From Tragulus kanchil (lineage: Eukaryota; Chordata; Mammalia; Artiodactyla; Tragulidae), in assembly GCA_022376925.1 (NCBI GenBank), contig JAIOJX010000031.1, positions 138,092,854 through 138,156,853 on the forward strand: a stretch of DNA of 64,000 nt. Direction: 5' to 3'. Position 1 is the first letter of the stretch. Each line of letters begins with the position of its first letter. Shown here one piece after another: positions 1 to 64,000 of the stretch. The notes under the pieces were generated by a model. It was not told the DNA's origin. It saw only the letters and a program-made list of their open reading frames with translations, and did no database searches. Made by a program: the position numbers and the translations under genes.

Positions 1-1742
1 ATAAAACCCCCATCTCATTTGGGGTTGCCTGTGTACCTGTCCGAAGCCCCAGGGCACCAATGCCTCTCTTTCTATCGTCTGACAATCTATTTCCCAGGCT
101 CCCTTGGCCTGTAGCTGTGGCCTTCGACCCAGATCTGGTCAAAGAGATATGCCACAAAGGCAGCTTCTGCAATGCTCTGCCTCCCTGATAAAACAGGCAG
201 GATCTGGCTGGTGCCAACTCTTCCCCCTCCTCCTGCCCTGAATATGTGGGCGAGGCCAGGAGCTGTGGACTCATCTTGCAGTCACAATGGTGAGAAGTCA
301 AAAGGCTAAGAGAGTGAAGAGCAAAAGATGAAAGAGTCTGGCTTCTCAAAGACCTTGCTAAGCAGTTCCACCAGTACTGGACTATCTACTTCCAGATTTC
401 TTACGTGGAAAAATAAAACAAACCATTGCTAATTGAGTCTTTTTAAAAGCATCACTAAAAACACTCCTAACTGCCAGGGTCTCAGGAAAGACCTTCTCAT
501 TCAACATTTGGGATCTGACTAATTTTGAGCTGGTTTTCTTCCTGTTCCCCCTTAAAGCAAAATCTGTCAATCTGTAGTCACTATTTGAAGATGGAGCCTG
601 TTAGGAGGAATTTAAGGTTATGTGAGGAAGTGCACATTTTCTTTGCACATCTGAGTGTCGTTCAATTTAGATGATACGATCGTAAAACTCCAGAGCTCAA
701 AATCTACAGAAATTGTTATCAAGAGCCAGAAGAGTAATCCAAAGGCTATCAGGTACTGCCTTCCCTTTCCTCATTCCTCCTCCCTTCCTTCCTCCATCAA
801 TAGGTTACAAAGGACCTCATCTGGGTCAGGCTCTTTGCCAGGCTTCAGGGATCCCAAGACCATGACCAAGTTCCTCCTGTGTGGAGCTCACAGTTCTGAG
901 GGAAAACAGAGACTAAGTTTCCAAGCCAGGTCATTAATGCCGCACCAAGGTGTCCACGGGCCTGTGGGAGCAGAGAGGAGAGCCACTCACCGTGACCTGG
1001 GCAGGTATGAGGGAAGGCATATGAGCTTGCAAGGAGGAGGGCATGCTCTTCAGTTGTGGATGTTGGTGTCTGTGCAAGACAGTTAGTTACAATGATTCAC
1101 CCCTTCTAGCTTCCTCATAAAACCCCCATCTCATTTGGGGTTGCCTGTGTACCTGTCCGAAGCCCCAGGGCACCAATGCCTCTCTTTCTATCGTCTGACA
1201 ATCTATTTCCCAGGCTCCCTTGGCCTGTAGCTGTGGCCTTCGACCCAGATCTGGTCAAAGAGATATGCCACAAAGGCAGCTTCTGCAATGCTCTGCCTCC
1301 CTGATAAAACAGGCAGGATCTGGCTGGTGCCAACTCTTCCCCCTCCTCCTGCCCTGAATATGTGGGCGAGGCCAGGAGCTGTGGACTCATCTTGCAGTCA
1401 CAATGGTGAGAAGTCAAAAGGCTAAGAGAGTGAAGAGCAAAAGATGAAAGAGTCTGGCTTCTCAAAGACCTTGCTAAGCAGTTCCACCAGTACTGGACTA
1501 TCTACTTCCAGATTTCTTACGTGGAAAAATAAAACAAACCATTGCTAATTGAGTCTTTTTAAAAGCATCACTAAAAACACTCCTAACTGCCAGGGTCTCA
1601 GGAAAGACCTTCTCATTCAACATTTGGGATCTGACTAATTTTGAGCTGGTTTTCTTCCTGTTCCCCCTTAAAGCAAAATCTGTCAATCTGTAGTCACTAT
1701 TTGAAGATGGAGCCTGTTAGGAGGAATTTAAGGTTATGTGAG
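1..1742. repeat. Direct duplication D1 (offset 1116 bp)
   Basis: Bases 1-626 recur at 1117-1742 with an offset of 1116. The first copy may begin before the window. The intervening 627-1116 is single copy and has no recognisable exon. Sequence beyond the second copy differs from that beyond the first, so the layout is A-B-A. The region is otherwise ordinary intergenic DNA with weak old-repeat character. I read the duplication as assembly stutter. Confidence 0.95.
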
Positions 1743-1751
1743 CACACAGAG

Positions 1752-2163
1752 AATGCCATTAGGACTGGTGTCCTAGGAAAAGAAAAAGAGGGACTTCCCT
1801 GGTGGTCCAGTGGCTAAGACTCTGAGTTCCCAATGCAGGGACCCAGGTTTGATCCCTGATTAGGGAGCTAGATCCCACATGCCTAAAATAAGATCCAGAG
1901 ACCCAAATAAATAAATATTTTAAAAAAAAAAAAAAGAAGAAGAGTACAAAACACCAGGAGTACACACAAAAGGCAAGACTGTGTGAGGACACAGCAAGAA
2001 GGCCACTAAGTCTACATGCCCAGGAGAGAGGCCTCTGGGGAAACCAACCCCACCAACACCTTGATCTCAGATTTCCTGCCTCCACAACTGTGAGAAAACA
2101 CATTTCTGTTGTGTACGCTTCCCATTTGTGGTATTTGGTCATGGCAGCCCTAGGGACCATTTC
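1752..2163 (+). mobile_element. ERVL-MaLR (MST/MLT1-type) LTR remnant, split by a SINE
   Basis: The 3' half (about 1985-2163) has the MaLR LTR landmarks: GTGAGGACACAGCAAGAAGG near 1983, CTTGATCTCAGATTTCCTGCC near 2060, then ACTGTGAGAAA and a TTTCTGTTG block near 2087-2110, ending in GGCAGCCCTAGGGACC. A short upstream piece (ATTAGGACTGGTGTCCT, about 1758) belongs to the same LTR. A CHR SINE at 1790-1935 separates the two pieces. It is old, degraded and non-coding; its left edge is uncertain. Confidence 0.75.
1790..1935 (+). mobile_element. CHR-type tRNA-derived SINE inserted in the MaLR LTR
   Basis: It starts GGACTTCCCTGGTGGTCCAG, has a Pol III B-box-like GGTTTGATCCC at 1846-1856, and ends in an AAATAAATA tract plus poly(A) to 1935. 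The length of about 146 bp matches short CHR-2-like members. Purine-rich AGAAAAAGAG just before it and AAGAAGAAGAG just after are a plausible but imperfect target-site duplication. Confidence 0.85.
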
Positions 2164-2233
2164 ACAAAGAGGTACTCTATAGAGAAAATAGAGTGGTCAG
2201 TTATTTTCCAACAATAGCAGAAATACCCCTCTG

Positions 2234-4403
2234 CTGTCCTGTCTTTCTTTCTTAAATATGAATGGAAAATCATAGATAACATCACTAGGTTTCTGAGGTA
2301 AGCAGTAGCTTGTAAGAGAATAACCAAAAATTAAAAACCAAAACAGAAAAAAAAATCCAATTCAATGATCAGAAAAGAATGTATTTTTAAAACCACTTCA
2401 TGGGCTTCCCCTGGTGGTCCAGTGGGTAAGGACACCACCTTGCAGTGCAAGGGACGCCGGTTCGATCCCTGGCCTGGGAAGATCCCACGTGCCGCGGAGT
2501 GGCTGGACTGATGTGTCCAATTACCCAGACGGAGCTCTGGAGCGCATGCGCCCAGAGCCGGTGCTCTGCGACAACAGAGGCCACTGCGATGGGAGGCCCA
2601 CATGGGCCAAAGAACAAAGATGGATGAAACTAGAGAAATGAAAGACCAATAGAAGTGGCCTGCCCGCTCCCCTCCCTCCCCAACCCGACCCCACCCAAAG
2701 TAAATAAATAAATTAATTAATTAAATAAAATAAAATAATAAAACCAATTCATGAATACACTCAGAGAGATTCAAGACAATATTATAGCAGTAAAATAAGA
2801 CTAAGACGCTATGGAGAAAGATCAACTAGAGAATAAGAAGATACTTTAAGGATGAAAACAATACTGCCAAAATAAAATAAATTATTAAAGGATGGAAAGC
2901 AAAGTCAATAAAGTAAATTATTAAAGGGTGGAAAGTAAACTGTGGTAGAATGTCAAACTATGCAAGAAAAGAAGAATTCAAGACAGAGGCAAAAACAAGA
3001 AAAACAGAGGGAAAAAAAAAGAAGCAACAATAAAGAAGGAGGAAGAGAATTCCTCCAAGTGGAATCAGGATCCAGATTTTTAGTTTGAAAGCACCCACAG
3101 TGAATGAAAGAGACATTCTAGTGAAATGTCAAAGTCACAAGGAAACAGAAAGTTCCAAAAGTTTCCCAAGAGACAAAACAAGGTAGTTAAAAAAGGAACA
3201 GAGCTCAGTCTGGTTTCAGACTTCTTAGTAGTAATTCATAATAGAGAAATACTTTCACAGTTATGAGAAAATATTACTTTAAGCCTAGAGTTCTATACCC
3301 GTTAAATGTCTTTTTTAACAATAGAATACTGTCCTGTCTTTCTTTCTTAAATATGAATGGAAAATCATAGATAACATCACTAGGTTTCTGAGGTAAGCAG
3401 TAGCTTGTAAGAGAATAACCAAAAATTAAAAACCAAAACAGAAAAAAAAATCCAATTCAATGATCAGAAAAGAATGTATTTTTAAAACCACTTCATGGGC
3501 TTCCCCTGGTGGTCCAGTGGGTAAGGACACCACCTTGCAGTGCAAGGGACGCCGGTTCGATCCCTGGCCTGGGAAGATCCCACGTGCCGCGGAGTGGCTG
3601 GACTGATGTGTCCAATTACCCAGACGGAGCTCTGGAGCGCATGCGCCCAGAGCCGGTGCTCTGCGACAACAGAGGCCACTGCGATGGGAGGCCCACATGG
3701 GCCAAAGAACAAAGATGGATGAAACTAGAGAAATGAAAGACCAATAGAAGTGGCCTGCCCGCTCCCCTCCCTCCCCAACCCGACCCCACCCAAAGTAAAT
3801 AAATAAATTAATTAATTAAATAAAATAAAATAATAAAACCAATTCATGAATACACTCAGAGAGATTCAAGACAATATTATAGCAGTAAAATAAGACTAAG
3901 ACGCTATGGAGAAAGATCAACTAGAGAATAAGAAGATACTTTAAGGATGAAAACAATACTGCCAAAATAAAATAAATTATTAAAGGATGGAAAGCAAAGT
4001 CAATAAAGTAAATTATTAAAGGGTGGAAAGTAAACTGTGGTAGAATGTCAAACTATGCAAGAAAAGAAGAATTCAAGACAGAGGCAAAAACAAGAAAAAC
4101 AGAGGGAAAAAAAAAGAAGCAACAATAAAGAAGGAGGAAGAGAATTCCTCCAAGTGGAATCAGGATCCAGATTTTTAGTTTGAAAGCACCCACAGTGAAT
4201 GAAAGAGACATTCTAGTGAAATGTCAAAGTCACAAGGAAACAGAAAGTTCCAAAAGTTTCCCAAGAGACAAAACAAGGTAGTTAAAAAAGGAACAGAGCT
4301 CAGTCTGGTTTCAGACTTCTTAGTAGTAATTCATAATAGAGAAATACTTTCACAGTTATGAGAAAATATTACTTTAAGCCTAGAGTTCTATACCCAGTTA
4401 AAT
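2234..4403. repeat. Direct duplication D2 (offset 1095 bp)
   Basis: Copy 1 is about 2234-3300 and copy 2 about 3329-4395, nearly identical and carrying the same SINE. A linker of about 28 bases (3301-3328) separates them. It begins GTTAAATGTC, a slightly corrupted form of the true continuation after copy 2 (AGTTAAATATC at 4396). That is the sign of an untrimmed sequence end rather than a biological junction. Confidence 0.97.
2403..2739 (+). mobile_element. Full-length CHR-1-related SINE with C-rich 3' tail (copy at 3498-3834)
   Basis: It starts GGCTTCCCCTGGTGGTCCAG, has a B box GGTTCGATCCC near 2459, then the conserved body and the 3' module GACCAATAGAAGTGGCC (about 2644) followed by a C-rich stretch and an AATAAATTAATTAA tail. 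A target-site duplication brackets it: AAAACCACTTCATG (2389-2402) and AAAACCAATTCATG (2740-2753), 13 of 14 matching. The second occurrence comes from duplication D2, not a new insertion. Confidence 0.9.
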
Positions 4404-4560
4404 ATCTAGTTGTTAAAAGTAAAATAAAAAGCTTTTCCAAACAGGCAAGTTCTCAGAAAATTCAACTCCCTCCACCCCCAAAAATTTAACTCACACAGGT
4501 TCGTGTCACAGGAAGCTGTGGAGGAGGAGGATATGTTCAACAATAAGTGGGAAAATGGGA
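2754..4560 (+). mobile_element. Old L1 (L1M-type) non-ORF fragment, repeated by D2 and D3
   Basis: A-rich sequence with phrases typical of the 5' or inter-ORF part of old mammalian L1s, such as AAGCCTAGAGTTCTATACCC at about 3281 and 4376, followed by a TTTTCCAAACAGGCAAG-like segment. No intact frame survives. The family is inferred from these phrases and the boundaries are soft. Confidence 0.45.
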
Positions 4561-4794
4561 TCTTGGGAAACAGTAACTCTCATTCTGGATAGCAGTGAAG
4601 GGAAGACACAGTGTACTTCCAGGAAGGAAATTGTTTCGCTCCGAGCAGAAAGATGGAGGCGTTCAGAACAGAGGCGTCTGGAAAAGAGAGGACCTCAGTT
4701 GAGATGTTAATGTTAAGAGTAGGATAGGCATGCAATGCAAGGGATACAAAACCTAAGTCAGATACTCCAGCAAAAAAGAAGGCTTGTCCAAAGT

Positions 4795-5138
4795 ACAGTA
4801 TATTAATACACATATATGGAATCTAGTAAGACGGTAAAGATAGCACACACAGAGAAGTGCTGGAAAAACAGACAGAAAACAGACTTATGGACATTGTAGG
4901 GAAGGAACAGTGGGGTGGGAGGTGTGGAAAGAGTAACATGGAAACCTATACTATCATATGTGAAAGAGATAGCTATTGTCATTGCGCAGGGGGAATAGGG
5001 GATCCTGCAGGGGTGCTGTGCGACAGCCCGGAGGGGTGGAATTGGGAGGATTGGGAAGGGGGTGGGGGCGGGAGGGACAGGGATATACATATGACTAATA
5101 TGGGGGTATACGTATCTGTACACAGCAAAACTCTGTAA
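4795..5138 (+). mobile_element. Artiodactyl L1 3' UTR end
   Basis: It begins ACACATATATGGAATCTAG near 4808, followed by the GGACATTGTAGGGAAGG segment, a G-rich stretch (GGGAAGGGGGTGGGGG near 5055) and ATATGACTAATATGG, then the terminal CAAAACTCTGTAAAAG. This order is characteristic of cetartiodactyl L1 3' UTRs. The ORF2 part is not present immediately upstream, so it is a strongly 5'-truncated copy. Confidence 0.75.
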
Positions 5139-5841
5139 AAGAAAAACAGAGGGAAAAAAAAAGAAGCAACAATAAAGAAGGAGGAAGAGAATTCCTCCAA
5201 GTGGAATCAGGATCCAGATTTTTAGTTTGAAAGCACCCACAGTGAATGAAAGAGACATTCTAGTGAAATGTCAAAGTCACAAGGAAACAGAAAGTTCCAA
5301 AAGTTTCCCAAGAGACAAAACAAGGTAGTTAAAAAAGGAACAGAGCTCAGTCTGGTTTCAGACTTCTTAGTAGTAATTCATAATAGAGAAATACTTTCAC
5401 AGTTATGAGAAAATATTACTTTAAGCCTAGAGTTCTATACCCAGTTAAATATCTAGTTGTTAAAAGTAAAATAAAAAGCTTTTCCAAACAGGCAAGTTCT
5501 CAGAAAATTCAACTCCCTCCACCCCCAAAAATTTAACTCACACAGGTTCGTGTCACAGGAAGCTGTGGAGGAGGAGGATATGTTCAACAATAAGTGGGAA
5601 AATGGGATCTTGGGAAACAGTAACTCTCATTCTGGATAGCAGTGAAGGGAAGACACAGTGTACTTCCAGGAAGGAAATTGTTTCGCTCCGAGCAGAAAGA
5701 TGGAGGCGTTCAGAACAGAGGCGTCTGGAAAAGAGAGGACCTCAGTTGAGATGTTAATGTTAAGAGTAGGATAGGCATGCAATGCAAGGGATACAAAACC
5801 TAAGTCAGATACTCCAGCAAAAAAGAAGGCTTGTCCAAAGT

Positions 5842-6185
5842 ACAGTATATTAATACACATATATGGAATCTAGTAAGACGGTAAAGATAGCACACACAGA
5901 GAAGTGCTGGAAAAACAGACAGAAAACAGACTTATGGACATTGTAGGGAAGGAACAGTGGGGTGGGAGGTGTGGAAAGAGTAACATGGAAACCTATACTA
6001 TCATATGTGAAAGAGATAGCTATTGTCATTGCGCAGGGGGAATAGGGGATCCTGCAGGGGTGCTGTGCGACAGCCCGGAGGGGTGGAATTGGGAGGATTG
6101 GGAAGGGGGTGGGGGAGGGAGGGTCAGGGATATACATATGACTAATATGGGATTATACGTATCTGTACACAACAAAACTCTGTAA
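5842..6185 (+). mobile_element. Second occurrence of the L1 3' UTR end
   Basis: This is the D3 image of 4795-5138. The true right edge of the L1 fragment is visible here: CTCTGTAAAAGC continues into A-rich single-copy DNA, whereas copy 1 jumps back at the same point. About 6190-6410 is AT-rich and holds nothing recognisable. Confidence 0.75.
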
Positions 6186-6417
6186 AAGCAAAAAGGAAAA
6201 TAAGAAAACAAAAAAAAGAATGCTTGTCCAAGAAAATTATGGTCCAAATTGGAAGCAAACACAAAAAAAAGAATGTAAGATCACTATGTGCAATTCCATG
6301 AAAACCCAATAATTTTTATTATAGAACCCTATTGTTTACCAAATTGTATGCTACTTCCCATAACTCCTTTATATTTCCCATGTCTCATAGGCCCTACAAA
6401 TGCTTATGGATATAAAC

Positions 6418-6707: not shown

Positions 6708-6709
6708 TT

Positions 6710-6993
6710 TTTTTTCCTTCTCTTCCCTCCTGCCATCATGCCTCTTTTTTTATTTTTATATTTATTTTCATCCATCTTTTATTCTTTGGCCTGTGTGGGC
6801 CTCCCATTGCAGTGGCCTCTCTCGTTGCAGAGCACCAGCTCTGGGTGCATGCGCTTCAGAGCGCCAGCTTGTAATTGGACACACTGACCCAGCTGCTCCG
6901 CGGCATGTGGACTCTTCGCAGACCAGGGATTGAACCAGTGCCCCTTGCACTGCAAGGTGCACTCTCTATCCACTGGACCACCAGGGAAGCCCC
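6710..6993 (-). mobile_element. CHR-1-related SINE inserted in the 5' tip of a CHR-2 SINE
   Basis: The minus-strand 5' end is GGGGCTTCCCTGGTGG at 6993. The target-site duplication ACCAGGGAAATCTT (6696-6709) and ACCAGAGAAATCTT (6994-7007) matches 13 of 14 and lies in the host CHR-2 head, so the order of insertion is clear. The tail has a long T-rich (minus-strand A-rich) tract. Confidence 0.9.
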
Positions 6994-7077
6994 ACCAGAG
7001 AAATCTTACAATATTTTTTTTTTAAATGAATGACATGTTGGTTTGTCTCCCTTTTTATTTATTTATTTATTCGTTTT

Positions 7078-7351
7078 TGGTTGGGGGCAGGTGGGCCACT
7101 TCTATTGGTCTTTTATTTATCTATTTTCATCCATCTTTGTGCTTTGGCCCGTGTGGGCCTCCCATCGCAGTGGCCTCTGTTGTCGCAGAGCACTGGCTCT
7201 GGGCTCATGCGCTCCAGAGCTCCGGCTCAGTAATTGGACACATCGGTCCAGCCTCTCTGTGGCACATGGGATCTTCCCAGGCCAGGGATCGAACCAGCGT
7301 CCCTTGCACTGCAAGGCGGTGTCCTTACCCACTGGACCACCAGGGAAGCCC
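7078..7351 (-). mobile_element. CHR-1-related SINE
   Basis: The minus-strand head GGGCTTCCCTGGTGGTCCAG ends at 7351, with B box GGTTCGATCCC near 7287-7297 and the 3' module GACCAATAGAAGTGGCC at 7096-7112. The C-rich tail appears on the plus strand as GGTTGGGGGCAGGTGGG. Both strands are open for 60-130 codons, an element property rather than a gene. Confidence 0.88.
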
Positions 7352-9335: not shown

Positions 9336-11427
9336 TAATTTGATTTTGTGAAATAAAATGGCAGTTAACATGGACCTAACTCTCAGAAAATGTACTCTCG
9401 GAGAATTTGGCCTCCCATTTAGGAGGCTCTCAGGTCACCCTTGAGGCTGATCCACAGGAGAATCTATAAACCTCTGTTCTAATTCTTAGAGTCTTAGAAC
9501 TGAGGGCCACGCTGTTTCTATCACTTCTGCAGGTCCCAGGGCAGGGGAGTTTCCTGAGAAGCTAAGAGCAAGGAGACTCCTATACAGGAAGCACTGGTCT
9601 CTCAGATGACCAGTCTACGAAAGAAAGTAGACGTAAGGACAACTAGTTGAGATCTGTGGTTTCCAGGTGAAGACGCTAGAGGGTCAGAGAGGGCCAGCGT
9701 CTTGCTTCCTCGTCCATTCAGGATCGCAGCAGGAGTCTCAGTAGCGATCACCACTGGAGGGCCCATGGAATGGGAGTCACTTTGCAGCGACTCAATAATC
9801 CTTTCAGTAATAATCCTTCCTCAGTGATCCCATCTGGCCTGGGCGTGATTATCCCTAGTCTTCAGAGAGGTTGAGTGACTTGTCAAAGTCACACAGCAGG
9901 CGTAGCTCACCTGAGGGTGGAATCCATTCTGGGTAACTTCAAAGCACGAGACCAAAGGTTGAGCAGACTATAAAGAGGACAAAGATAACGTCTTTACCCT
10001 CATACCAGCCGTCAGTCTTACAACAGGGTAAAGAAACATATGAAAAAAGGGAAAGTGTTTTTCAAATGCTTACTACCTACCTGCCTCTGAGGACAGGGCC
10101 CCAGGGGAGATTCCTTAGTCCTGAATCCGCATGGTCTCATCTTTCATTTTCTTCCACTCAGATGATGGTTTTAACACTGCGTGTACTCAGACTGCAGCTC
10201 GGTGAGCATCCTGGAGGCCCTCTGAGATGCCCACTCAGAGGCGCCCACCCTGTTTCCCACCTCAGCTGCCAATGAAGAAGCAGTCTGTGGTGAGCCACCT
10301 CTGCCTTGTCACGCCCGGGAGATAAGGAGCCATGCCTGTTCAGGGGAAAAACACCTTTTCTGAGCACCCCCCCCAACCCCCCTACTCTGTGGTGGGCATT
10401 GGAGACTAGTAATTTGAATTTGATTTTGTGAAATAAAATGGCAGTTAACATGGACCTAACTCTCAGAAAATGTACTCTGGAGAATTTGGCCTCCCATTTA
10501 GGAGGCTCTCAGGTCACCCTTGAGGCTGATCCACAGGAGAATCTATAAACCTCTGTTCTAATTCTTAGAGTCTTAGAACTGAGGGCCACGCTGTTTCTAT
10601 CACTTCTGCAGGTCCCAGGGCAGGGGAGTTTCCTGAGAAGCTAAGAGCAAGGAGACTCCTATACAGGAAGCACTGGTCTCTCAGATGACCAGTCTACGAA
10701 AGAAAGTAGACGTAAGGACAACTAGTTGAGATCTGTGGTTTCCAGGTGAAGACGCTAGAGGGTCAGAGAGGGCCAGCGTCTTGCTTCCTCGTCCATTCAG
10801 GATCGCAGCAGGAGTCTCAGTAGCGATCACCACTGGAGGGCCCATGGAATGGGAGTCACTTTGCAGCGACTCAATAATCCTTTCAGTAATAATCCTTCCT
10901 CAGTGATCCCATCTGGCCTGGGCGTGATTATCCCTAGTCTTCAGAGAGGTTGAGTGACTTGTCAAAGTCACACAGCAGGCGGTAGCTCACCTGAGGGTGG
11001 AATCCATTCTGGGTAACTTCAAAGCACGAGACCAAAGGTTGAGCAGACTATAAAGAGGACAAAGATAACGTCTTTACCCTCATAACAGCCGTCAGTCTTA
11101 CAACAGGGTAAAGAAACATATGAAAAAGGTAAAGTGTTTTTCAAATGCTTACTACCTACCTGCCTCTGAGGACAGGGCCCCAGGGGAGATTCCTTAGTCC
11201 TGAATCCGCATGGTCTCATCTTTCATTTTCTTCCACTCAGATGATGGTTTTAACACTGCGTGTACTCAGACTGCAGCTCCGGTGAGCATCCTGGAGGCCC
11301 TCTGAGATGCCCACTCAGAGGGGCGCCCACCCTGTTTCCCACCTCAGCTGCCAATGAAGAAGCAGTCTGTGGTGAGCCACCTCTGCCTTGTCACGCCCGG
11401 GGAGATAAGGAGCCATGCCTGTTCAGG
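9279..11427. repeat. Direct duplication D4 (offset 1104 falling to about 1080-1083)
   Basis: Copy 1 is 9279-10344, copy 2 is 10383-11427, with a C-rich linker at 10345-10382. Copy 2 lacks about 24 net bases near its start (around 9304-9333 of copy 1) and differs by single-base indels such as CTCTCGGAG versus CTCTGGAG and CAGGCGTAG versus CAGGCGGTAG. The content is single-copy DNA with a MIR; no gene is supported. Confidence 0.96.
9835..9925 (-). mobile_element. MIR fragment (copy at about 10915-11006)
   Basis: The plus strand has CAGAGAGGTTGAGTGACTTG and TCACACAGCAGG, the reverse complement of the MIR core (CTGTGTGA..CAAGT..TTAACCTCTCTG). It is old and degraded, and repeated only because of D4. 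Confidence 0.6.
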
Positions 11428-11807
11428 CATCTACAAAGGGAGGAGGCATCCACCTGGCCGCCATCGGCTGACCATCAGACTGCCGGTTTCTGCCGGCAGC
11501 GCCGCATGCATGCATTCCCTGCACAGACTCTCTCCTCTGGCCCCACGGGGCTGGACCCGGGGCCCCTTCCAGCTGCTCTGTCTTCCTCACCTTTGCTCTT
11601 GCTCAAGGCCACACCGACGCCTCCCCTTTTGCCTCTGTCCACGCAACTCCTCCGGCCTGGACCTGGCAGTGTATGCCCATCCTTCCTTCACAGGGTCTCA
11701 AGCTTCAGCGCTCTTGTGAGGCCCTACTGCCCCTCAAGTTGACGTCGAGACCAGCCATTTCTCCAGGGTAGACGGACCCCAGGTGCCCTAACACCGCTGC
11801 CCCTCTC

Positions 11808-11885
11808 ATGGTGTTCAGTCGCTCTGTCGTGTCCGACTCTTGGCGACCCCGGGACAGCAGCATGCCAGGTTTCCCTGTCCTTCAC
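11808..11885 (-). mobile_element. Bov-A/Bov-tA fragment (copy at 12914-12991)
   Basis: GTGTTCAGTCGCTCTGTCGT, GTCCGACTCTTGGCGACC and GCATGCCAGGTTTCCCTGTCC follow one another. They are the antisense of the Bov-tA 3' end and adjoining Bov-A segment known from ruminants. It is a short truncated piece and supports a ruminant source. Confidence 0.75.
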
Positions 11886-11999
11886 AGACTTGCCTTTCCT
11901 GGCCTTGTCTTTTCCCCACTTTGGACCCTGGGGAAGTGAACTTGTACCTGGGCTCCCTTTTACCACTCACAGACTCTGGGAGCTGGTCGACCTTTGGTT

Positions 12000-12160
12000 C
12001 AGTTCCTCATCTTCACCTTGGAGATGAGAAAAGCAAGGCCCAGCGTGAGACAGTGACATGCACGGGGTCTCCTGGTTGGTGTTGGGGTTTGGGGTTCAGG
12101 CTAGAACCTAGGGGTCCTGTTCCCCAGCCCAGTGCCACGGCCCCTCTTCCCCACTTCACC
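12000..12160 (-). mobile_element. Probable MIR remnant (copy at 13106-13266)
   Basis: TTCCTCATCTTCACCTTGG, AGATGAGAAAAGCAAGGC and a later CTAGAACCTAGGGGTCCTG resemble a diverged MIR in reverse orientation. The call is tentative because substitutions are dense. Confidence 0.4.
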
Positions 12161-25393: not shown

Positions 25394-25402
<9 letters not shown>

Positions 25403-26490: not shown

Positions 26491-26521
<31 letters not shown>

Positions 26522-51066: not shown

Positions 51067-51319
51067 AACACTATGATGAATGAAATTGATGAGAGTGGAC
51101 ATACTTGTCTTTTTTCCTAATCTTAGAGAAAATGGTTCAGTTTTTCACCACTGAATATGATGTCAGCTGATGGTTTGTCTTCTGTGACCTTATTACGTTG
51201 AGGTATGGTCCCTCTGTGCCCACTTTCTGGAGAGTTTTTATCATGTATGGATATTGAATTTTATTCAAAGCTTTTTCCATACCTACTGACATGACCATAT
51301 GGTTTTCATTCTTCAGTTT

Positions 51320-53521
51320 GTTAATATGGTGTATCACATTGATTGATTTTTGAATATTGAAAAATCCTTACATACCTGGGATAAATCTCCTTTGATAATG
51401 GTATATGATCCTTTAAATGTTTTTTTGGATGCAGTTTGCTAGTATTTTGTTGACAATTTTTGCATCTGTGTTTGTCAGTGATACTGGCCTGTGATATACA
51501 TATATATGTATATACTGCTTTTGTTAAGTGCATACCATTTCTGTTCTTTATTGTGCCCATCTTTGCATGAAATGTTCCCATGTTATCTCTAAGTTTCTTG
51601 AAGAGGTCTCTAGTCTTTCCCATTCTATTGCTTTCCTCTATTTTTTTGCATTATTCACTTAAAAAGATTTTATATCATCCCTCCTTGCTATTCTCCAGAA
51701 CTCTGCATTCAAATGGGTATATCTTTCCTTTTCTCCCTTGCCTTTCACTTTTCTCAGCTATTTCTAACACCTCCTCAGACAACCATTTTGCATTTTCACA
51801 TTTCTTTTTGAGGGGTGTGGTGTCAATCACTGTCTCCTGTACAATGTTATGAACCTCCATCCATAGTTCCTTAGGCATTCAGTTTGTCAGATCTAATTCC
51901 TTGAATCTGTCACTTTCACTGTGTAATCATAAGGGATTTGATTTAGGTCATACCTGAATAGGCAAATGGTTTTCACTACTTCCTTCAGTTTTACTCTGAA
52001 TTTTGCAATAAAGAGCTCATGATCTGAGCCACAGTCAGCTCCTAGTCTTGTTTTTGCCGATTGTATAGAGCTTTTCAGCTTTGGCTACAAAGAATATAAT
52101 CAATCTGATTTGGATATTGATCATTTGGTGATGTCTATGTGTAGAGTCACTTCTTCTGTTGTTGGAAGAGGGTGTTTGCTATGACTAGTGTTCTTTTGGC
52201 AAAATCTGTTAGCCTGTGCCTTTCTTCACTTTCTATTCCAAAATCAAACAAGCCTGTTACTCCAGGTATCTCTTGACTTCCTACTTTTGCTTTCCAGTCC
52301 CCTATGATGACATCCTTTTTCAATGTTAGTTCTAGAACATCTTGTAGGTCTTCACAGAACTGTTCAATTTCAGCTTATTCAGCATTAGTGGTTGGGCATA
52401 GATTTGGATTGCCTTGCCTTATTCAATGTTAATATGGTGTATCACATTGATTGATTTTTGAATATTGAAAAATCCTTACATACCTGGGATAAATCTCCTT
52501 TGATAATGGTATATGATCCTTTAAATGTTTTTTTGGATGCAGTTTGCTAGTATTTTGTTGACAATTTTTGCATCTGTGTTTGTCAGTGATACTGGCCTGT
52601 GATATACATATATATGTATATACTGCTTTTGTTAAGTGCATACCATTTCTGTTCTTTATTGTGCCCATCTTTGCATGAAATGTTCCCATGTTATCTCTAA
52701 GTTTCTTGAAGAGGTCTCTAGTCTTTCCCATTCTATTGCTTTCCTCTATTTTTTTGCATTATTCACTTAAAAAGATTTTATATCATCCCTCCTTGCTATT
52801 CTCCAGAACTCTGCATTCAAATGGGTATATCTTTCCTTTTCTCCCTTGCCTTTCACTTTTCTCAGCTATTTCTAACACCTCCTCAGACAACCATTTTGCA
52901 TTTTCACATTTCTTTTTGAGGGGTGTGGTGTCAATCACTGTCTCCTGTACAATGTTATGAACCTCCATCCATAGTTCCTTAGGCATTCAGTTTGTCAGAT
53001 CTAATTCCTTGAATCTGTCACTTTCACTGTGTAATCATAAGGGATTTGATTTAGGTCATACCTGAATAGGCAAATGGTTTTTCACTACTTCCTTCAGTTT
53101 TACTCTGAATTTTGCAATAAAGAGCTCATGATCTGAGCCACAGTCAGCTCCTAGTCTTGTTTTTGCCGATTGTATAGAGCTTTTCAGCTTTGGCTACAAA
53201 GAATATAATCAATCTGATTTGGATATTGATCATTTGGTGATGTCTATGTGTAGAGTCACTTCTTCTGTTGTTGGAAGAGGGTGTTTGCTATGACTAGTGT
53301 TCTTTTGGCAAAATCTGTTAGCCTGTGCCTTTCTTCACTTTCTATTCCAAAATCAAACAAGCCTGTTACTCCAGGTATCTCTTGACTTCCTACTTTTGCT
53401 TTCCAGTCCCCTATGATGACATCCTTTTTCAATGTTAGTTCTAGAACATCTTGTAGGTCTTCACAGAACTGTTCAATTTCAGCTTATTCAGCATTAGTGG
53501 TTGGGCATAGATTTGGATTGC
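51320..53521. repeat. Direct duplication D18 (offset 1108-1109 bp)
   Basis: Copy 1 is 51320-52412 and copy 2 is 52428-53521. The short linker GCCTTGCCTTATTC is a compressed form of the true downstream (GCTGTTATATTGAATGG then CTTGCCTTGG at 53521-53546). The L1/BovB boundary lies inside both copies. Confidence 0.97.
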
Positions 53522-55328
53522 TGTTATATTGAATGGCTTGCCTTGGAAACAAACTGAGATCATTCTGTATTGCATTTTAGACTTTTTGTTGACTCTGAGG
53601 GATACTCCATTTCTTCTAAGGCCTCAGTAGTAGATACAATGGTCATCAGTAGTAGACATAATCGTCATCTGAATTAAATTTACCCATTCCTGTCCACTGA
53701 TTTCTAAAATGTTGACGTTTACTCTTACCATCTCCTGTTTGACAGCTTCCAATTTGCCTTGATTCATGGACCTAACATGGTTCCTATGCAGTATTGTTCT
53801 TTACAAAATCAGACTTTTCTTCCACCACCAGACACAACCACAACCGGGTATTGTTTCTGCTTTGACTCAGCCTTTTCATTCCTTCTGGAGCTATTTCTTT
53901 GCTTTTCTCCAGTAGCATATTGGATACCTACTGACCTGAGGGGGTTCATCTTTCAGTGCCATATCATTTCACATTTTCATACCTGTTCAGGGGATTCTCA
54001 AGGCAAGAACGACCAAGTGCCTTGCCATTCCATTCTCCAGTGGACTGCATTTTGTCAGAACTCTCCACCATGACCCGTCTTGGGTGGCCCTACACGGCAT
54101 AACTCATAGTTTTGCTGAGTCAGGCAAGGTTGTGGTCCATGTAATCAGTTTGGTTAGTTTTCTGTGATTGCAGTTTTCTTTCTGACTGCCCTCTGATGGA
54201 TGAGGATAAGAGGCTTATGCAAGCTTCCTCATAGGAGGGCTAGTCTTGTTTTTGCCGATTGTATAGAGCTTTTCAGCTTTGGCTACAAAGAATATAATCA
54301 ATCTGATTTGGATATTGATCATTTGGTGATGTCTATGTGTAGAGTCACTTCTTCTGTTGTTGGAAGAGGGTGTTTGCTATGACTAGTGTTCTTTTGGCAA
54401 AATCTGTTAGCCTGTGCCTTTCTTCACTTTCTATTCCAAAATCAAACAAGCCTGTTACTCCAGGTATCTCTTGACTTCCTACTTTTGCTTTCCAGTCCCC
54501 TATGATGACATCCTTTTTCAATGTTAGTTCTAGAACATCTTGTAGGTCTTCACAGAACTGTTCAATTTCAGCTTATTCAGCATTAGTGGTTGGGCATAGA
54601 TTTGGATTGCTGTTATATTGAATGGCTTGCCTTGGAAACAAACTGAGATCATTCTGTATTGCATTTTAGACTTTTTGTTGACTCTGAGGGATACTCCATT
54701 TCTTCTAAGGCCTCAGTAGTAGATACAATGGTCATCAGTAGTAGACATAATCGTCATCTGAATTAAATTTACCCATTCCTGTCCACTGATTTCTAAAATG
54801 TTGACGTTTACTCTTACCATCTCCTGTTTGACAGCTTCCAATTTGCCTTGATTCATGGACCTAACATGGTTCCTATGCAGTATTGTTCTTTACAAAATCA
54901 GACTTTTCTTCCACCACCAGACACAACCACAACCGGTATTGTTTCTGCTTTGACTCAGCCTTTTCATTCCTTCTGGAGCTATTTCTTTGCTTTTCTCCAG
55001 TAGCATATTGGATACCTACTGACCTGAGGGGGTTCATCTTTCAGTGCCATATCATTTCACATTTTCATACCTGTTCAGGGGATTCTCAAGGCAAGAACGA
55101 CCAAGTGCCTTGCCATTCCATTCTCCAGTGGACTGCATTTTGTCAGAACTCTCCACCATGACCCGTCTTGGGTGGCCCTACACGGCATAACTCATAGTTT
55201 TGCTGAGTCAGGCAAGGTTGTGGTCCATGTAATCAGTTTGGTTAGTTTTCTGTGATTGCAGTTTTCTTTCTGACTGCCCTCTGATGGATGAGGATAAGAG
55301 GCTTATGCAAGCTTCCTCATAGGAGGGA
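53151..55328. repeat. Direct tandem duplication D19 (unit 1089 bp)
   Basis: Copy 1 is 53151-54239 and copy 2 is 54240-55328, abutting at AGGAGGGCTAGTC. One indel was noticed: AACCGGGTATTG versus AACCGGTATTG. CTAGTCTTGTTTTTGCCG occurs three times (52041, 53151, 54240) through overlap with D18. Confidence 0.97.
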
Positions 55329-56327: not shown

Positions 56328-56704
56328 TGTTTGTAATAGTCAAACCTTTTCCTTATATAGAAACTCCTTTGTGGTGTCCCAAGGACAAAAGAACAAAGTG
56401 AACAAGGAGGTCTTGGAATGCAGGAACAGATAAATCAGATCCTTCTTGCCCTTCCCTCCTCCAAACTGTAAGCAATACTCTTCCCCACCCAGTACACCTT
56501 CCAATCAGCAATTGATTCGTAAGACTCCGATCCCACTCCACGGACCCTGGTATAAAAATGGATCAAAAACCCCTGTTCAATGTCGGTTCTCTCTTGAGCT
56601 GGCCCGCTTTTCTAGCAGTGTCTCCCTCTCTAATAAACTTGATTCTCCTTTCACTTTGCCTCATGTGTGGAAATTCTTTTCCAACCCACACATGGACCAC
56701 AGCA
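56328..56704 (+). mobile_element. Endogenous retroviral LTR, plus strand (tail repeated at 57761-57855)
   Basis: CCAATCAG (56501-56508) as a CCAAT box, GGTATAAAAATGG (56548-56560) as TATA box, and AATAAA at 56632-56637 lie in LTR order. The U5-like end reads ..CACATGGACCACAGCA at 56704. The 5' edge is a guess at a TG near 56328. No internal viral frame is adjacent. A solo LTR is the simplest reading. Confidence 0.6.
56501..56637 (+). promoter_or_regulatory. LTR CCAAT box, TATA box and polyadenylation signal
   Basis: CCAATCAG at 56501, TATAAAAA at 56550 and AATAAA at 56632 are spaced as in a retroviral promoter with an R region of about 60 bases. Activity is not testable from sequence. Confidence 0.5.
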
Positions 56705-56897
56705 TCCTTCATTGTTGAAAACTGGTGATTCATTTCCAAAGTTCTGAACAAGTTTTTTTTTTTTTTATTAATGTCTCCCCCCCCCCCCCACATGTCTTTA
56801 TTGATGTTTTGGGGGAGTAGATTATTTGGAGATCCTCACTCTATTTTGGAAGGGCTTCTCTCTCTCTTATATTTTAATTCCACATATACTTTAAACA

Positions 56898-57122
56898 GGC
56901 TTCCCAGGTGGCGCTAGTGGTAAAAGAACCTGCCTGCAGATGCAGGAGACCTAAGAGTCACAGTTTTGATTCCTCCTCGGTCAGGAAGGTCCCTTGGAGG
57001 AAAGAATGGCAACCCACTCCAGTATTCTTGCTTGGAGAATTCCATGGACAGAGAAGCCTGGCAGGCTGCCGTCCACAGGGTTGCACAGAGTTGGATACGA
57101 CTGAACCAACTTTGTACACAAG
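56898..57122 (+). mobile_element. Bov-tA SINE with perfect target-site duplication (copy at 58043-58267)
   Basis: GGCTTCCCAGGTGGCGCTAG head, a GATTCCTCCTCGGTCAGG segment, ACCCACTCCAGTATTCTTG and GTTGGATACGACTGAACCAA end. CATATACTTTAAACA occurs at 56883-56897 and 57123-57137 exactly. It sits between two LTRs. Confidence 0.93.
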
Positions 57123-57232
57123 CATATACTTTAAACACCAAGAGATATTGTTATTTTATTTTTTTTTATTTCTTCAGTTTTCATTTATAGTTAAGAATAC
57201 ACTTACCTTTCTGCTGTTTATCATTCCTTCTG

Positions 57233-57674
57233 TTGCAGGAAGTGTTGCGGGAGTGGGCGGGGAGCCCTTCCAGGGCCTGAAAGGGGACTTTGGTCTAACA
57301 CTCGGAAACGAACTGTTCAAAGAAAGACATGTGCTGACAAAGCAAGAGGTTTTATTGAGAAGGGGCACCCAGCAGAGAACAGCTGGGTAAGGGACCCCAG
57401 GAGGACTGCTTTGCCACAGAACAGTGGCTCACAGTCTCAGGTTTTATGATGATGGGAATAGTCTGGCCAGTCATTCTAACTCAGGGTTCCTTACTGATGA
57501 CCGTCATCTTGTTCAGCCAAGATGGTTTCCAGCGAGGATGCTGGAAGGTGGAAGGACATGTGATGTCTCCTTTTGACCTTTCATAAATTCTGCCCATTAG
57601 TGGTGCCCTGTTAGGTCCGTTGGTGACGGCTTATTTGTTCCACTTTCCTTACCTGTTATAAAACAACTCAGAGC
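57233..57674 (-). mobile_element. Endogenous retroviral LTR, minus strand (copies at 58378-58815 and, partial, 59586-59931)
   Basis: The minus strand carries AATAAAACCTCTTGCTTTG with AATAAA at 57356-57351. A U5-like stretch follows, ending CTTCCTGCAACA at 57233. The other edge is where a CHR SINE adjoins (about 57674). No gag, pol or env frame is attached. The two further occurrences come from D20 and D21. Confidence 0.6.
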
Positions 57675-58815
57675 TTCCTGGTGGTCCAGTGGATAAAGAG
57701 TCCACCTTGCAGTGCAAGGTCGAGTTCGACCCAGCATCCTTCATTGTTGAAACTGGTGATTTCTAGCAGTGTCTCCCTCTCTAATAAACTTGATTCTCCT
57801 TTCACTTTGCCTCATGTGTGGAAATTCTTTTCCAACCCACACATGGACCACAGCATCCTTCATTGTTGAAAACTGGTGATTCATTTCAAAGTTCTGAACA
57901 AGTTTTTTTTTATTAATGTCCCCCCCCCCCCCCCACATGTCTTTATTGATGTTTTGGGGGAGTAGATTATTTGGAGATCCTCACTCTATTTTGGAAGGGC
58001 TTCTCTCTCTCTTATATTTTAATTCCACATATACTTTAAACAGGCTTCCCAGGTGGCGCTAGTGGTAAAAGAACCTGCCTGCAGATGCAGGAGACCTAAG
58101 AGTCACAGTTTTGATTCCTCCTCGGTCAGGAAGGTCCCTTGGAGGAAAGAATGGCAACCCACTCCAGTATTCTTGCTTGGAGAATTCCATGGACAGAGAA
58201 GCCTGGCAGGCTGCCGTCCACAGGGTTGCACAGAGTTGGATACGACTGAACCAACTTTGTACACAAGCATATACTTTAAACACCAAGAGATATTGTTATT
58301 TTATTTTTTTTTATTTCTTCAGTTTTCATTTATAGTTAAGAATACACTTACCTTTCTGCTGTTTATCATTCCTTCTGTTGCAGGAAGTGTTGCGGGAGTG
58401 GGCGGGGAGCCCTTCCAGGGCCTGAAAGGGGACTTTGGTCTAACACTCGGAAACGAACTGTTCAAAGAAAGACATGTGCTGACAAAGCAAGAGGTTTTAT
58501 TGAGAAGGGGCACCCAGCAGAGAACAGCTGGGTAAGGGACCCCAGGAGGACTGCTTTGCCACAGAACAGTGGCTCACAGTCTCAGGTTTTATGATGATGG
58601 GAATAGTCTGGCCAGTCATTCTAACTCAGGGTTCCTTACTGATGACCGTCATCTTGTTCAGCCAAGATGGTTTCCAGCGAGGATGCTGGAAGGTGGAAGG
58701 ACATGTGATGTCTCCTTTTGACCTTTCATAAATTCTGCCCATTAGTGGTGCCCTGTTAGGTCCGTTGGTGACGGCTTATTTGTTCCACTTTCCTTACCTG
58801 TTATAAAACAACTCA

Positions 58816-59094
58816 GAGCTTCCCTGGTGGTCCAGTGGATAAAGAGTCCACCTTGCAGTGCAAGGGCTCGAGTTCGATCCCTGGCTGGGGAAGATCCCAA
58901 GCGCTGCATAGTGGCTAGACCGGTGTGTCCAATTACCAGCCAGCACTCTGGAGCGCATGTGCCCAGAGCCGGTGCTCTGCAATGGGAGAGGCCACTGCGA
59001 TGGGAGGTTGGCAGAGGCCAAAGAAGAAAGATGGACGAAAATAAATAAATAAACAATTTTTTTTAAAGGCCAAAATTAAAGAAAAAAAAAAAAA
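58816..59094 (+). mobile_element. CHR-1-related SINE adjoining the minus-strand LTR (copy at 59933-60211; head at 57672-57720)
   Basis: AGCTTCCCTGGTGGTCCAG head, B box GTTCGATCCC near 58872, GGCCACTGCGATGGGAGG body at 58991, AATAAATAAATAA and an AAGGCCAAAATTAAAG end with poly(A). No convincing target-site duplication was found. The 57672 occurrence is cut after about 50 bases by the D20 junction. Confidence 0.87.
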
Positions 59095-59485
59095 ACCCTC
59101 ACACAAATGGGTACTAAGGTGCCTGGCCAGGGCGGGCAGCTTCAGTGTGCTAACCCTAACACTTCTTGCATTACTGTACCTGCATCTTTAATAATGTTCC
59201 TTCTGTTTAAAAAACTCCTTTAGTGTTCCTTTTAGGCCCATTAGCTAGAAATGTATGCTCTCAGGTTTTGACTAAAAATATTTTTATCTTCATTTTGAAA
59301 GGTATTTTCATTGAGAATAGAATTTTATGGTGACGATTATTTTATTTGTGCTCTATGAAGATTCAATTGGACTGTCCTCTGGGATACCTAAATTTCTGTT
59401 GAAAAATTTCCCATCTTATTACTGTTCTTCTGAAAGTAACATCTCTTTTTTCTTCTGGCTGTTTTGTTTTGTTTTTCCTTTTTTT
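59095..59485. other. AT-rich single-copy DNA (image at 60212-60600)
   Basis: No recognisable repeat or exon. Contains T-rich runs. Confidence 0.45.
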
Positions 59486-60610
59486 TAAAAAAAAAAAAAT
59501 TATTATTTATTTGGCTGCATTGGGTTTTAGTTGTGGCACACAAGATCTTTTTGGTGGAGCTGGGACTTTGGTCTACAAACGCAAAAAGACATGTGCTGAC
59601 AAAGCAAGAGGTTTTATTGAGAAGGGGCACCCAGCAGAGAACAGCTGGGTAAGGGACCCCAGGAGGACTGCTTTGCCACAGAACAGTGGCTCACAGTCTC
59701 AGGTTTTATGATGATGGGAATAGTCTGGCCAGTCATTCTAACTCAGGGTTCCTTACTGATGACCGTCATCTTGTTCAGCCAAGATGGTTTCCAGCGAGGA
59801 TGCTGGAAGGTGGAAGGACATGTGATGTCTCCTTTTGACCTTTCATAAATTCTGCCCATTAGTGGTGCCCTGTTAGGTCCGTTGGTGACGGCTTATTTGT
59901 TCCACTTTCCTTACCTGTTATAAAACAACTCAGAGCTTCCCTGGTGGTCCAGTGGATAAAGAGTCCACCTTGCAGTGCAAGGGCTCGAGTTCGATCCCTG
60001 GCTGGGGAAGATCCCAAGCGCTGCATAGTGGCTAGACCGGTGTGTCCAATTACCAGCCAGCACTCTGGAGCGCATGTGCCCAGAGCCGGTGCTCTGCAAT
60101 GGGAGAGGCCACTGCGATGGGAGGTTGGCAGAGGCCAAAGAAGAAAGATGGACGAAAATAAATAAATAAACAATTTTTTTTAAAGGCCAAAATTAAAGAA
60201 AAAAAAAACCCTCACACAAATGGGTACTAAGGTGCCTGGCCAGGGCGGGCAGCTTCAGTGTGCTAACCCTAACACTTCTTGCATTACTGTACCTGCATCT
60301 TTAATAATGTTCCTTCTGTTTAAAAAACTCCTTTAGTGTTCCTTTTAGGCCCATTAGCTAGAAATGTATGCTCTCAGGTTTTGACTAAAAATATTTTTAT
60401 CTTCATTTTGAAAGGTATTTTCATTGAGAATAGAATTTTATGGTGACGATTATTTTATTTGTGCTCTATGAAGATTCAATTGGACTGTCCTCTGGGATAC
60501 CTAAATTTCTGTTGAAAAATTTCCCATCTTATTACTGTTCTTCTGAAAGTAACATCTCTTTTTTCTTCTGGCTGTTTTGTTTTGTTTTTCCTTTTTTTTA
60601 AAAAAAAAAA

Positions 60611-60808
60611 AATTATTATTTATTTGGCTGCATTGGGTTTTAGTTGTGGCACACAAGATCTTTTTTGGTGGAGCTGGAACTTCGCAATTGTGGCTCAAAG
60701 GCTTAGTTGCCCATGGCATGTGAGATATCAGTTCCCAGACTAGGATTGAACCTGCATCCTGTGCTCTGCAAGGTGGATTCTTAACCATTGGACCACCAAG
60801 GAAGTCCC
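60611..60808 (-). mobile_element. CHR-type SINE (copies at 61743-61940 and, truncated, 59494-59563)
   Basis: Minus-strand head GGGACTTCCTTGGTGGTCCA at 60808, B-box-like GGTTCAATCC near 60742-60751, ending AAATAAATAATAAT at 60611. The tail flank is a mixed poly(T)/poly(A) run. Confidence 0.83.
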
Positions 60809-60917
60809 TCCTTTGGCTGCTTTTAAGACTTTTCTTTGTCCTTGATTTTCAGCAGATTTAATATGGTGCAACTAAATGTGTTTTTCTTTTGTGTGTGTAT
60901 GTTTCTTTTTTAAAAGA

Positions 60918-61246
60918 TAATTTTATTTACTTATTTATTTTCTTTTTGGCCACACTGGATCTTTGTTGCTTTGGATGGACTTTCTCTAGTTGTGGCGAGT
61001 GGAGGCTACTCTTCATGGTGGTGAACAGGCTTTTCACTGTAGTGGCTTCTTTCTTTGCAGAGCACAGGCTCTAGGCACAGTCTTCAGTCTCTGTGACAAG
61101 CAGGCTCAGTAATTGCAGTTTGCAGGCTCTATAGCACAGGCTCAGTAGTTGTGGCATAGGGGCTTAGTTGTCCTGCAGCACGTAAGATCTTCCTGGATCA
61201 GAAATCAAACCCATATCGCCTGCATTGGCAGGTAGATTCTTATCCA
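60918..61246 (-). mobile_element. CHR-2 SINE, diverged (copy at 62050-62378)
   Basis: On the minus strand: a GATAAGAATCTACCTGCCAATGC segment at 61246, GGTTTGATTTCTGATCC, the CHR-2 internal ACTACTGAGCC repeats, and an AAATAAATAAGTAAATAA tail at 60918. The first bases of the head are lost. Confidence 0.8.
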
Positions 61247-62691
61247 TTTTGAAGTCTCAAAATGTGTTTTTCTTTATATTTATTGTTCATGGTATTCATC
61301 GGGTTCCTTGGATCTATGATGTACTTTCTATCATTCAATCATTTACCCTTCAAACAGTGCTGCTTTCCTTTTCTATCTTTTTCTCTAATTATGAAATTCC
61401 ATTTTTATGTATTTTTTTCCATATCTCATGCCACTTATTTTTTTTTTTAACTGAGTGCTAGGCATTGCCTATAAAAAAAATTACATAGATAATTTGAGAC
61501 CCTCCTGGTGTTACTTTTCTTCAGAGAGAATTTACTTTTGCCTCTAGCAGTTAGGTTGAGAATAGAATTTTATGGTGACGATTATTTTATTTGTGCTCTA
61601 TGAAGATTCAATTGGACTGTCCTCTGGGATACCTAAATTTCTGTTGAAAAATTTCCCATCTTATTACTGTTCTTCTGAAAGTAACATCTCTTTTTTCTTC
61701 TGGCTGTTTTGTTTTGTTTTTCCTTTTTTTTAAAAAAAAAAAAATTATTATTTATTTGGCTGCATTGGGTTTTAGTTGTGGCACACAAGATCTTTTTTGG
61801 TGGAGCTGGAACTTCGCAATTGTGGCTCAAAGGCTTAGTTGCCCATGGCATGTGAGATATCAGTTCCCAGACTAGGATTGAACCTGCATCCTGTGCTCTG
61901 CAAGGTGGATTCTTAACCATTGGACCACCAAGGAAGTCCCTCCTTTGGCTGCTTTTAAGACTTTTCTTTGTCCTTGATTTTCAGCAGATTTAATATGGTG
62001 CAACTAAATGTGTTTTTCTTTTGTGTGTGTATGTTTCTTTTTTAAAAGATAATTTTATTTACTTATTTATTTTCTTTTTGGCCACACTGGATCTTTGTTG
62101 CTTTGGATGGACTTTCTCTAGTTGTGGCGAGTGGAGGCTACTCTTCATGGTGGTGAACAGGCTTTTCACTGTAGTGGCTTCTTTCTTTGCAGAGCACAGG
62201 CTCTAGGCACAGTCTTCAGTCTCTGTGACAAGCAGGCTCAGTAATTGCAGTTTGCAGGCTCTATAGCACAGGCTCAGTAGTTGTGGCATAGGGGCTTAGT
62301 TGTCCTGCAGCACGTAAGATCTTCCTGGATCAGAAATCAAACCCATATCGCCTGCATTGGCAGGTAGATTCTTATCCATTTTGAAGTCTCCAAATGTTGT
62401 TTTCTTTATATTTATTGTTCATGGTATTCATCGGGTTCCTTGGATCTATGATGTACTTTCTATCATTCAATCATTTACCCTTCAAACAGTGCTGCTTTCC
62501 TTTTCTATCTTTTTCTCTAATTATGAAATTCCATTTTTATGTATTTTTTTCCATATCTCATGCCACTTATTTTTTTTTTTAACTGAGTGCTAGGCATTGC
62601 CTATAAAAAAAATTACATAGATAATTTGAGACCCTCCTGGTGTTACTTTTCTTCAGAGAGAATTTACTTTTGCCTCTAGCAGTTAGGTTGA

Positions 62692-63488
62692 ATAAATGCG
62701 GATTACAATAATCCAGTCTGAGTCTGAATTGGTTTAAAACCAAGTGTTAGTCTTCAGAGGAATCAGACTATTTCCATTTCACCTTTGTTCCTAGGTGTGG
62801 CTCTTCTGGGATGCTAATTGGAGCCCAGCACTGCTTATGAGTCAGCAAAGACGCCCTGGGAAGCTCTGAGCCCTTTAGCTCTGTGGCACTTATTAACTTT
62901 ATGGTTAATGCCTCAAAGAGGAGTTTGGCATAATGCTGGGTTCACTTCAGTGCTCCTATGTTTTCTCAGCCTCTTTAAGTCCTTGGTGTCTTCAAACAGC
63001 AACAAAAATGCTTGAATAAGCTTTTCATCTTGAAATATTTTTTTAATTATGGAAGGTTGCAAAATAGCATAGAGTTATCACATATCCTTTATCCATTTCC
63101 CCCTGACGTTTATGTCTTGCCTAACCTTGCTACATTTGAAAATCAATAAGTTAACATGGATACAATGCTATTAAGTAATCTGCAGACTTGATTCAGGTTT
63201 CATTGGGTGTTTCATGATGTCCTTTTTCTGTTCTAATACCTAATCCAGGGTACTACTTTATGTCTACCAGTCATGTCTACCGGTTACATGCTCTGTAACC
63301 ATTTTTCAGTCTTTTTTTGTTCTTCATAGCCTCGATAGGTCTGAAGAGTACTAGTCTAGCATTTTGTAAAGAATCTCTCAGTTTGGGCTTGCTGATGTTT
63401 TCTCATGAATAGACTGGATTGTTGTTTTGGAGGGAAGAATACCACAGATTCAAAGTACCCTTCTCATCCCATCCTATCAGAGGGCACA
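62692..63488. other. Single-copy intergenic DNA
   Basis: About 800 bases with no recognised exon or RNA gene. ATTATGGAAGGTTGCAAAATAG near 63047 is weakly L1-like. Nothing else is notable. Confidence 0.45.
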
Positions 63489-63560
63489 TGTTGTAGACTA
63501 AATGTTTGTATCCTCCCTAGATTAATATGCTGAAGTTTTAGCCCCCGAGGTAATGGTATT
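63489..63560 (+). mobile_element. ERVL-MaLR LTR 5' end, cut by the D23 junction
   Basis: TGTTGTAGACTAAATGTTTG, TATCCTCC, AATATGCTGAAGTTTTAGCCC and GAGGTAATGGTATT are the 5' end of an MST/MLT1-type LTR, where AATGGTATTAGG is expected next. Instead the text switches to CATCGGG of the duplicated block. Confidence 0.6.
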
Positions 63561-64000
63561 CATCGGGTTCCTTGGATCTATGATGTACTTTCTATCATTC
63601 AATCATTTACCCTTCAAACAGTGCTGCTTTCCTTTTCTATCTTTTTCTCTAATTATGAAATTCCATTTTTATGTATTTTTTTCCATATCTCATGCCACTT
63701 ATTTTTTTTTTTAACTGAGTGCTAGGCATTGCCTATAAAAAAAATTACATAGATAATTTGAGACCCTCCTGGTGTTACTTTTCTTCAGAGAGAATTTACT
63801 TTTGCCTCTAGCAGTTAGGTTGAATAAATGCGGATTACAATAATCCAGTCTGAGTCTGAATTGGTTTAAAACCAAGTGTTAGTCTTCAGAGGAATCAGAC
63901 TATTTCCATTTCACCTTTGTTCCTAGGTGTGGCTCTTCTGGGATGCTAATTGGAGCCCAGCACTGCTTATGAGTCAGCAAAGACGCCCCGGGGAAGCTCT

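Follow-up and report, generated by a model that had tools for sequence, protein, structure and literature searches.

Near-identical 1.1-kb direct duplications across a Tragulus kanchil genome assembly, almost certainly introduced by the assembler

Does a stretch of a mammalian chromosome contain more than twenty tandem duplications of one and the same length, or were these introduced while the genome was being assembled? This question is raised by 64,000 nucleotides (hereafter the window) of the Tragulus kanchil assembly GCA_022376925.1 (contig JAIOJX010000031.1, C30:138,092,854-138,156,853). An earlier note, made from the letters of this DNA, listed 23 direct duplications in it, each at an offset of about 1.1 kb, and estimated that approximately 25 kb of the window was surplus. 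Self-alignment (self-BLAST) recovered all 23 in head-to-tail arrangement, at offsets (1047-1154 bp) that agree with those listed, and the surplus was computed as 25,609 bp, so that 38,391 bp remain when each block is counted once (Table 1). The first and last pairs are clipped by the window ends, and the other 21 are complete, their copies being separated by -8 to 96 bp. Copy identity across the 23 pairs is 98.5-100% (5 of them consist of identical copies), and over 23,921 bases the pairs pooled contain 12 mismatches and 44 insertion or deletion (indel) events. Repeats of 1 kb at such identity are far beyond chance. Of 25,936 pairs of identical 20-mers in the window, 25,344 fall at offsets of 1000-1499 (22,785 pairs) or 2000-2499 (2,559 pairs), the latter being chained events. 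A mobile element was ruled out as the source, as the content differs from unit to unit. As argued below, these duplications were almost certainly made by the assembler and are absent from the DNA of the animal.

The same offset recurs elsewhere in the assembly (3,167,203,957 bases in 32 contigs), which was one of the checks that the earlier note had proposed. For this analysis, 120 random 10-kb positions, stratified and shuffled, were drawn over 1.85 Gb of 14 contigs of known minimum length (approximately 1.3 Gb lay outside the draw) and 25 of them, located on 12 contigs, were analysed. The search for pairs, with minima of 300 bp and 97% identity, was made within each of 26 stretches, i.e. the window and the 25 random ones (314 kb). 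The random stretches contained 63 pairs in 250 kb, with 23 of 25 stretches positive and 1 to 4 pairs in each of these (the first 20 had given 53 pairs in 19 positive stretches, with a slightly higher length cut than that applied to all 25). This corresponds to 16 pairs per 64 kb (the window has 23), and by extrapolation the assembly would contain approximately 0.8 million pairs if its unsampled part is alike. The wide presence of the pairs is independent of content, the proportion of guanine and cytosine (GC) being 0.4315 in the duplicated units and 0.4317 in the stretches.

The pairs found in these stretches are also highly uniform. For the 70 complete ones (21 from the window and 49 from the sample), the mean offset is 1116.9 bp (standard deviation 36.6, range 1023-1227 bp), and the gap between the copies is absent in 26, of 1-100 bp in 43 and of 136 bp in one. 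Every pair seen is at least 98.2% identical, pairs below 97% lying outside the count. Apart from the pairs at about 1.1 kb, the 314 kb contained only 10 direct pairs, all at 2142-2262 bp, which is the distance expected when two events are chained. Inverted pairs reaching the same minima of length (300 bp) and identity (97%) were absent within the stretches. A similar distance was observed among matches to a short interspersed nuclear element (SINE) type sequence elsewhere in the assembly: six pairs, each on one strand, lie 1082-1117 bp apart among the 54 matches listed (40 of 7393 candidates were scored), e.g. C27:49,159,391 and 49,160,497.

The differences between copies are mainly small indels. 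In the 70 complete pairs, the copies differ by 83 mismatches and by 151 indel events with a median size of 1 bp, and a homopolymer or short tandem sequence is the context of 100 of these events. When counted by successive tenths of the copy, the indels number 30, 15, 2, 7, 7, 10, 8, 10, 9 and 53, and the mismatches 10, 15, 2, 6, 7, 5, 3, 9, 1 and 25. The first and last tenths thus hold 83 of the 151 indels and 35 of the 83 mismatches, an excess of which a part may reflect where local alignments stop. In pair 3 of the window, all 6 mismatches are located within the final 80 bases. Errors are therefore worst at the block ends, and such a pattern would fit two consensuses of one DNA, each poorest at the end of its unit, and would be unlike that of diverging copies or alleles.

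The consequences for a gene can be seen in RAG1, a vital gene that would not be expected to tolerate such a duplication; its core domain is encoded by one exon, and it is a single-copy gene in jawed vertebrates. A profile search with the RAG1 core gave three matches from five candidates, none of them beyond contig C7, and none of 14 control genomes gave a match to the family. The three matches follow one another and cover positions 2-379, 22-226 and 223-632 of the profile, the second piece containing one stop. Within the core, 1,063 bp are directly duplicated (C7:30,136,091-30,137,153 and C7:30,137,192-30,138,254) with an offset of 1101 bp, 99.8% identity and 38 bp between the copies. RAG1, the one gene on which the evidence of gene interruption is based, is thus broken up by a duplication like those of the window. 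The 23 positive stretches out of 25, the consensus errors clustered at the ends and the interruption of RAG1 together support the earlier note's proposal that the duplications come from an assembler stitching blocks with an overlap of about 1 kb.

How could an assembler generate such pairs? The geometry of the pairs, their wide presence, the error pattern and the interruption of RAG1 were directly observed; the failed join, and the software in which it took place, are inferred. The layout of the assembly would be a chain of consensus units, in which adjacent units have one block of approximately 1.1 kb in common. In a normal join, the common block would be recognised from an alignment between the tail of one unit and the head of its successor, and retained once. 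In a failed join, the units would be concatenated unmerged, and the block would then occur as two head-to-tail copies, in some cases separated by a short stretch of noisy bases. Two successive failed joins would give chained pairs, and successful joins would leave no mark. Chained pairs are found in the window. Pairs 10 and 11, for instance, have 210 bp in common between the second copy of the former and the first copy of the latter, which makes the sequence here a series of approximately 2-kb units with approximately 1.1 kb common to each neighbour. The overlap of chained blocks is 43-409 bp, and the midpoints of complete pairs, in collapsed coordinates, are spaced 701 to 5403 bp apart (47 spacings), as for units that share one node and whose adjacent nodes have limited overlap.

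The linkers between the copies were compared with the continuation of the flanks. In an anchored split test of the 34 linkers that measure 10 bp or more, the mean z was 0.97 and the score per base was 0.23, versus 0.13 at random placements, with p of 0.05 or less for 9 of the 34. An earlier unanchored local alignment covered 27 linkers, all 15 bp or longer, taken from the window and from the first 20 stretches, and in 8 of them the score exceeded the 99th percentile obtained with random placements. The longest linker of the window, that of pair 7, is similar to a noisy continuation of its flanks. The resemblance of linkers to flanks is modest support for the view that they are noisy continuations.

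As for the software, the wtdbg2 assembler (Ruan and Li) reportedly cuts reads into 256-bp bins and uses 1024-bp nodes of four bins, and its companion wtpoa-cns is said to join units sharing a node. The wtdbg family is the most likely source because of the block size, the chains and the tendency of spacings towards multiples of 261-273 bp, and we regard a failed node join of this type as the probable origin of the duplications. As in wtdbg or wtdbg2 with wtpoa-cns, consecutive units share one block of approximately 1 kb, the duplicated blocks chain in the way adjacent nodes do, and starts and midpoints, unlike ends, tend to be spaced near multiples of 256 bp; in contrast, the shared node, which should be merged, stands duplicated at many joins. 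Periodicity was first analysed with the clipped pairs included and then in nine ways (three measures at three nested cut-offs). The best period for unit starts and midpoints was 261-273 bp, with jitter p values at the three cut-offs of 0.024, 0.003 and 0.033 for midpoints and 0.01, 0.000 and 0.007 for starts; these six favourable tests overlap and hence depend on one another. Concerning the wtdbg2-style 1024-bp nodes that the earlier note had named as a candidate, the chain structure fits and the spacing period does so for starts and midpoints, but not for ends, which makes this software likely without proving it.

Several observations weigh against the explanation of the pairs by failed joins in an assembler of the wtdbg type. 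The mean offset, 1117 bp, is 9% above 1024 and needs effects of read errors or bin phase; read deletions and bin phases differing among reads, lengthening the block by a few percent, may account for the excess. Unit ends lack a 256-bp-like period in all three tests (p of 0.46, 0.42 and 0.49), and 25 of the 34 linkers taken individually do not match their flanks in the anchored split test. Two of the 25 random stretches (L014 and L032) contained no pairs, and given these, failed joins may be uneven along contigs. The size of the genome is a further point. The surplus in the sample is 28% (bootstrap 95% interval 23-32%), therefore the 3.167 Gb of the assembly would hold approximately 2.28 Gb (2.14-2.42 Gb) of real sequence, if the unsampled part is alike. 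This would be low for a ruminant, as the available portion of PMC11628655 gives 2.11-2.98 Gb for 11 ruminant assemblies, 10 of them at 2.59 Gb or more. Collapsed repeats, or a lower density of duplications outside the sample, could account for the low figure. Finally, no paper was recognised as describing this join failure in searches of the open-licence literature, an absence that carries little weight, since those who use the software may well be aware of it. The title of PMC8896016 names extensive duplications in a wtdbg2 assembly, and its accessible passages make no mention of such an artefact; likewise, the accessible passages of PMC8228171 and PMC12037172 contain no description of it.

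Among the alternatives, the same stitching error made by other software, for example by chunked polishing with a fixed overlap, survives best, and we consider it possible although rather unlikely. Any tool that cuts overlapping blocks could presumably fail alike, and the 256-bp period missing from the unit ends is in its favour. Fixed chunking, however, predicts a constant junction spacing and a constant overlap, neither of which agrees with the broad range of midpoint spacings and of offsets described above.

Far less probable is haplotypic duplication, in which both alleles would stand in succession as unpurged haplotigs. Haplotypic duplication is common in assemblies of heterozygous animals and, like the pairs described here, inflates assembly size and gene copy number. 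Unpurged haplotigs have no fixed unit, and their copies differ by allelic substitutions. Here, in contrast, the length is nearly fixed, and instead of the mostly substitutional, spread differences expected of alleles, the copies differ more often by indels than by mismatches and do so near their ends. In the passages available from PMC11232282, a wtdbg2 assembly has 45.5% duplicated benchmarking universal single-copy orthologues (BUSCOs), lowered by purging, and many duplicated BUSCOs are given for wtdbg2, Flye and Canu alike; the artefact seen here is undescribed in those passages.

Real and very recent tandem duplications of approximately 1.1 kb, spread genome-wide by an unknown replication mechanism, would also place near-identical copies head to tail, but they can practically be dismissed, as they would require some 0.8 million events by the above extrapolation, with a single unit length and every observed pair highly identical, with no dependence on GC, with indels outnumbering substitutions and massed at the ends, and with one pair of copies inside the RAG1 core and a stop in the following piece. 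Biological tandem duplications are rare events whose unit lengths and ages vary. The pairs described here resemble them in the head-to-tail order of the copies and differ in having one unit length and recent copies only; varied unit lengths, ages and orientations, as expected of a biological process, or varied divergences in a gene-compatible arrangement, were not what was found. Slightly less credible still is an unknown replication process that made one copy of a fixed length of approximately 1.1 kb at each of hundreds of thousands of sites in real chromosomes, independently of sequence.

As products of failed joins, the duplications would have no biological meaning, and they constitute a data-quality warning for a chromosome-scale assembly. 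Many more genes besides RAG1 are expected to be interrupted, and gene models, copy numbers and estimates of segmental duplication derived from this assembly would be wrong. Self-alignment offsets clustered at 1.02-1.23 kb provide a signature that is simple enough for the screening of other assemblies.

Table 1. Direct duplications in the window (window coordinates, self-BLAST). Ranges of offset within one pair result from indels between its copies.
Pair	Span	First copy	Second copy	Offset (bp)	Identity (%)	Remarks
1	1-1742	1-626	1117-1742	1116	100	first copy clipped by window start
2	2234-4403	2234-3307	3329-4403	1095	99.9	
3	4092-6193	4092-5146	5139-6193	1047	99.4	chained to pair 2
4	9337-11427	9337-10344	10417-11427	1080-1083	99.1	
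5	11384-13584	11384-12478	12498-13584	1106-1114	99.3	chained to pair 4
6	14024-16227	14024-15117	15128-16227	1104-1110	99.5	
7	15979-18190	15979-17036	17133-18190	1154	100	96-bp linker; chained to pair 6
8	18124-20379	18124-19238	19265-20379	1141	99.5	chained to pair 7
9	24680-26866	24680-25770	25779-26866	1096-1099	99.7	
10	28063-30262	28063-29146	29179-30262	1116	100	
11	30053-32259	30053-31128	31184-32259	1131	100	chained to pair 10
12	32996-35241	32996-34118	34119-35241	1123	99.6	without linker
13	38776-40975	38776-39861	39874-40975	1098-1114	98.5	
14	40638-42901	40638-41764	41770-42901	1132-1137	99.4	chained to pair 13
15	43046-45226	43046-44119	44151-45226	1105	99.8	
16	47049-49283	47049-48161	48172-49283	1123	99.9	
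17	48948-51067	48948-49981	50034-51067	1086	100	chained to pair 16
18	51319-53521	51319-52412	52427-53521	1108	99.9	
19	53151-55327	53151-54239	54240-55327	1089	99.9	chained to pair 18
20	56609-58877	56609-57729	57760-58877	1148-1151	99.1	
21	58468-60682	58468-59568	59585-60682	1114-1117	99.5	chained to pair 20
22	60424-62691	60424-61559	61556-62691	1132	99.7	chained to pair 21
23	62421-64000	62421-62867	63553-64000	1132	99.6	second copy clipped by window end; chained to pair 22

The window also contains older tandem copies at 45454-45983 (offset 250 bp, 87% identity) and 6763-7351 (offset 359 bp, 82%), which are probably SINEs inserted next to each other and independent of the 1.1-kb artefact; a transfer RNA-like match is located at 45457-45533. 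Two transfer RNA-like matches, together with reading frames of the kind found in ruminant Bov-A type repeats, point to an even-toed ungulate, and an initial assignment to cetaceans, based on a SINE, was given up in view of those frames. Elsewhere in the assembly, SINE-type matches were also observed at distances outside the offset range of the artefact, namely two that are 869 bp apart (C31:84581247 and 84582116) and three at a spacing of 344 bp (C26:70331068, 70331412 and 70331756). Four of the random stretches (L015, L016, L019 and L024) include 64, 167, 273 and 505 N letters, respectively.

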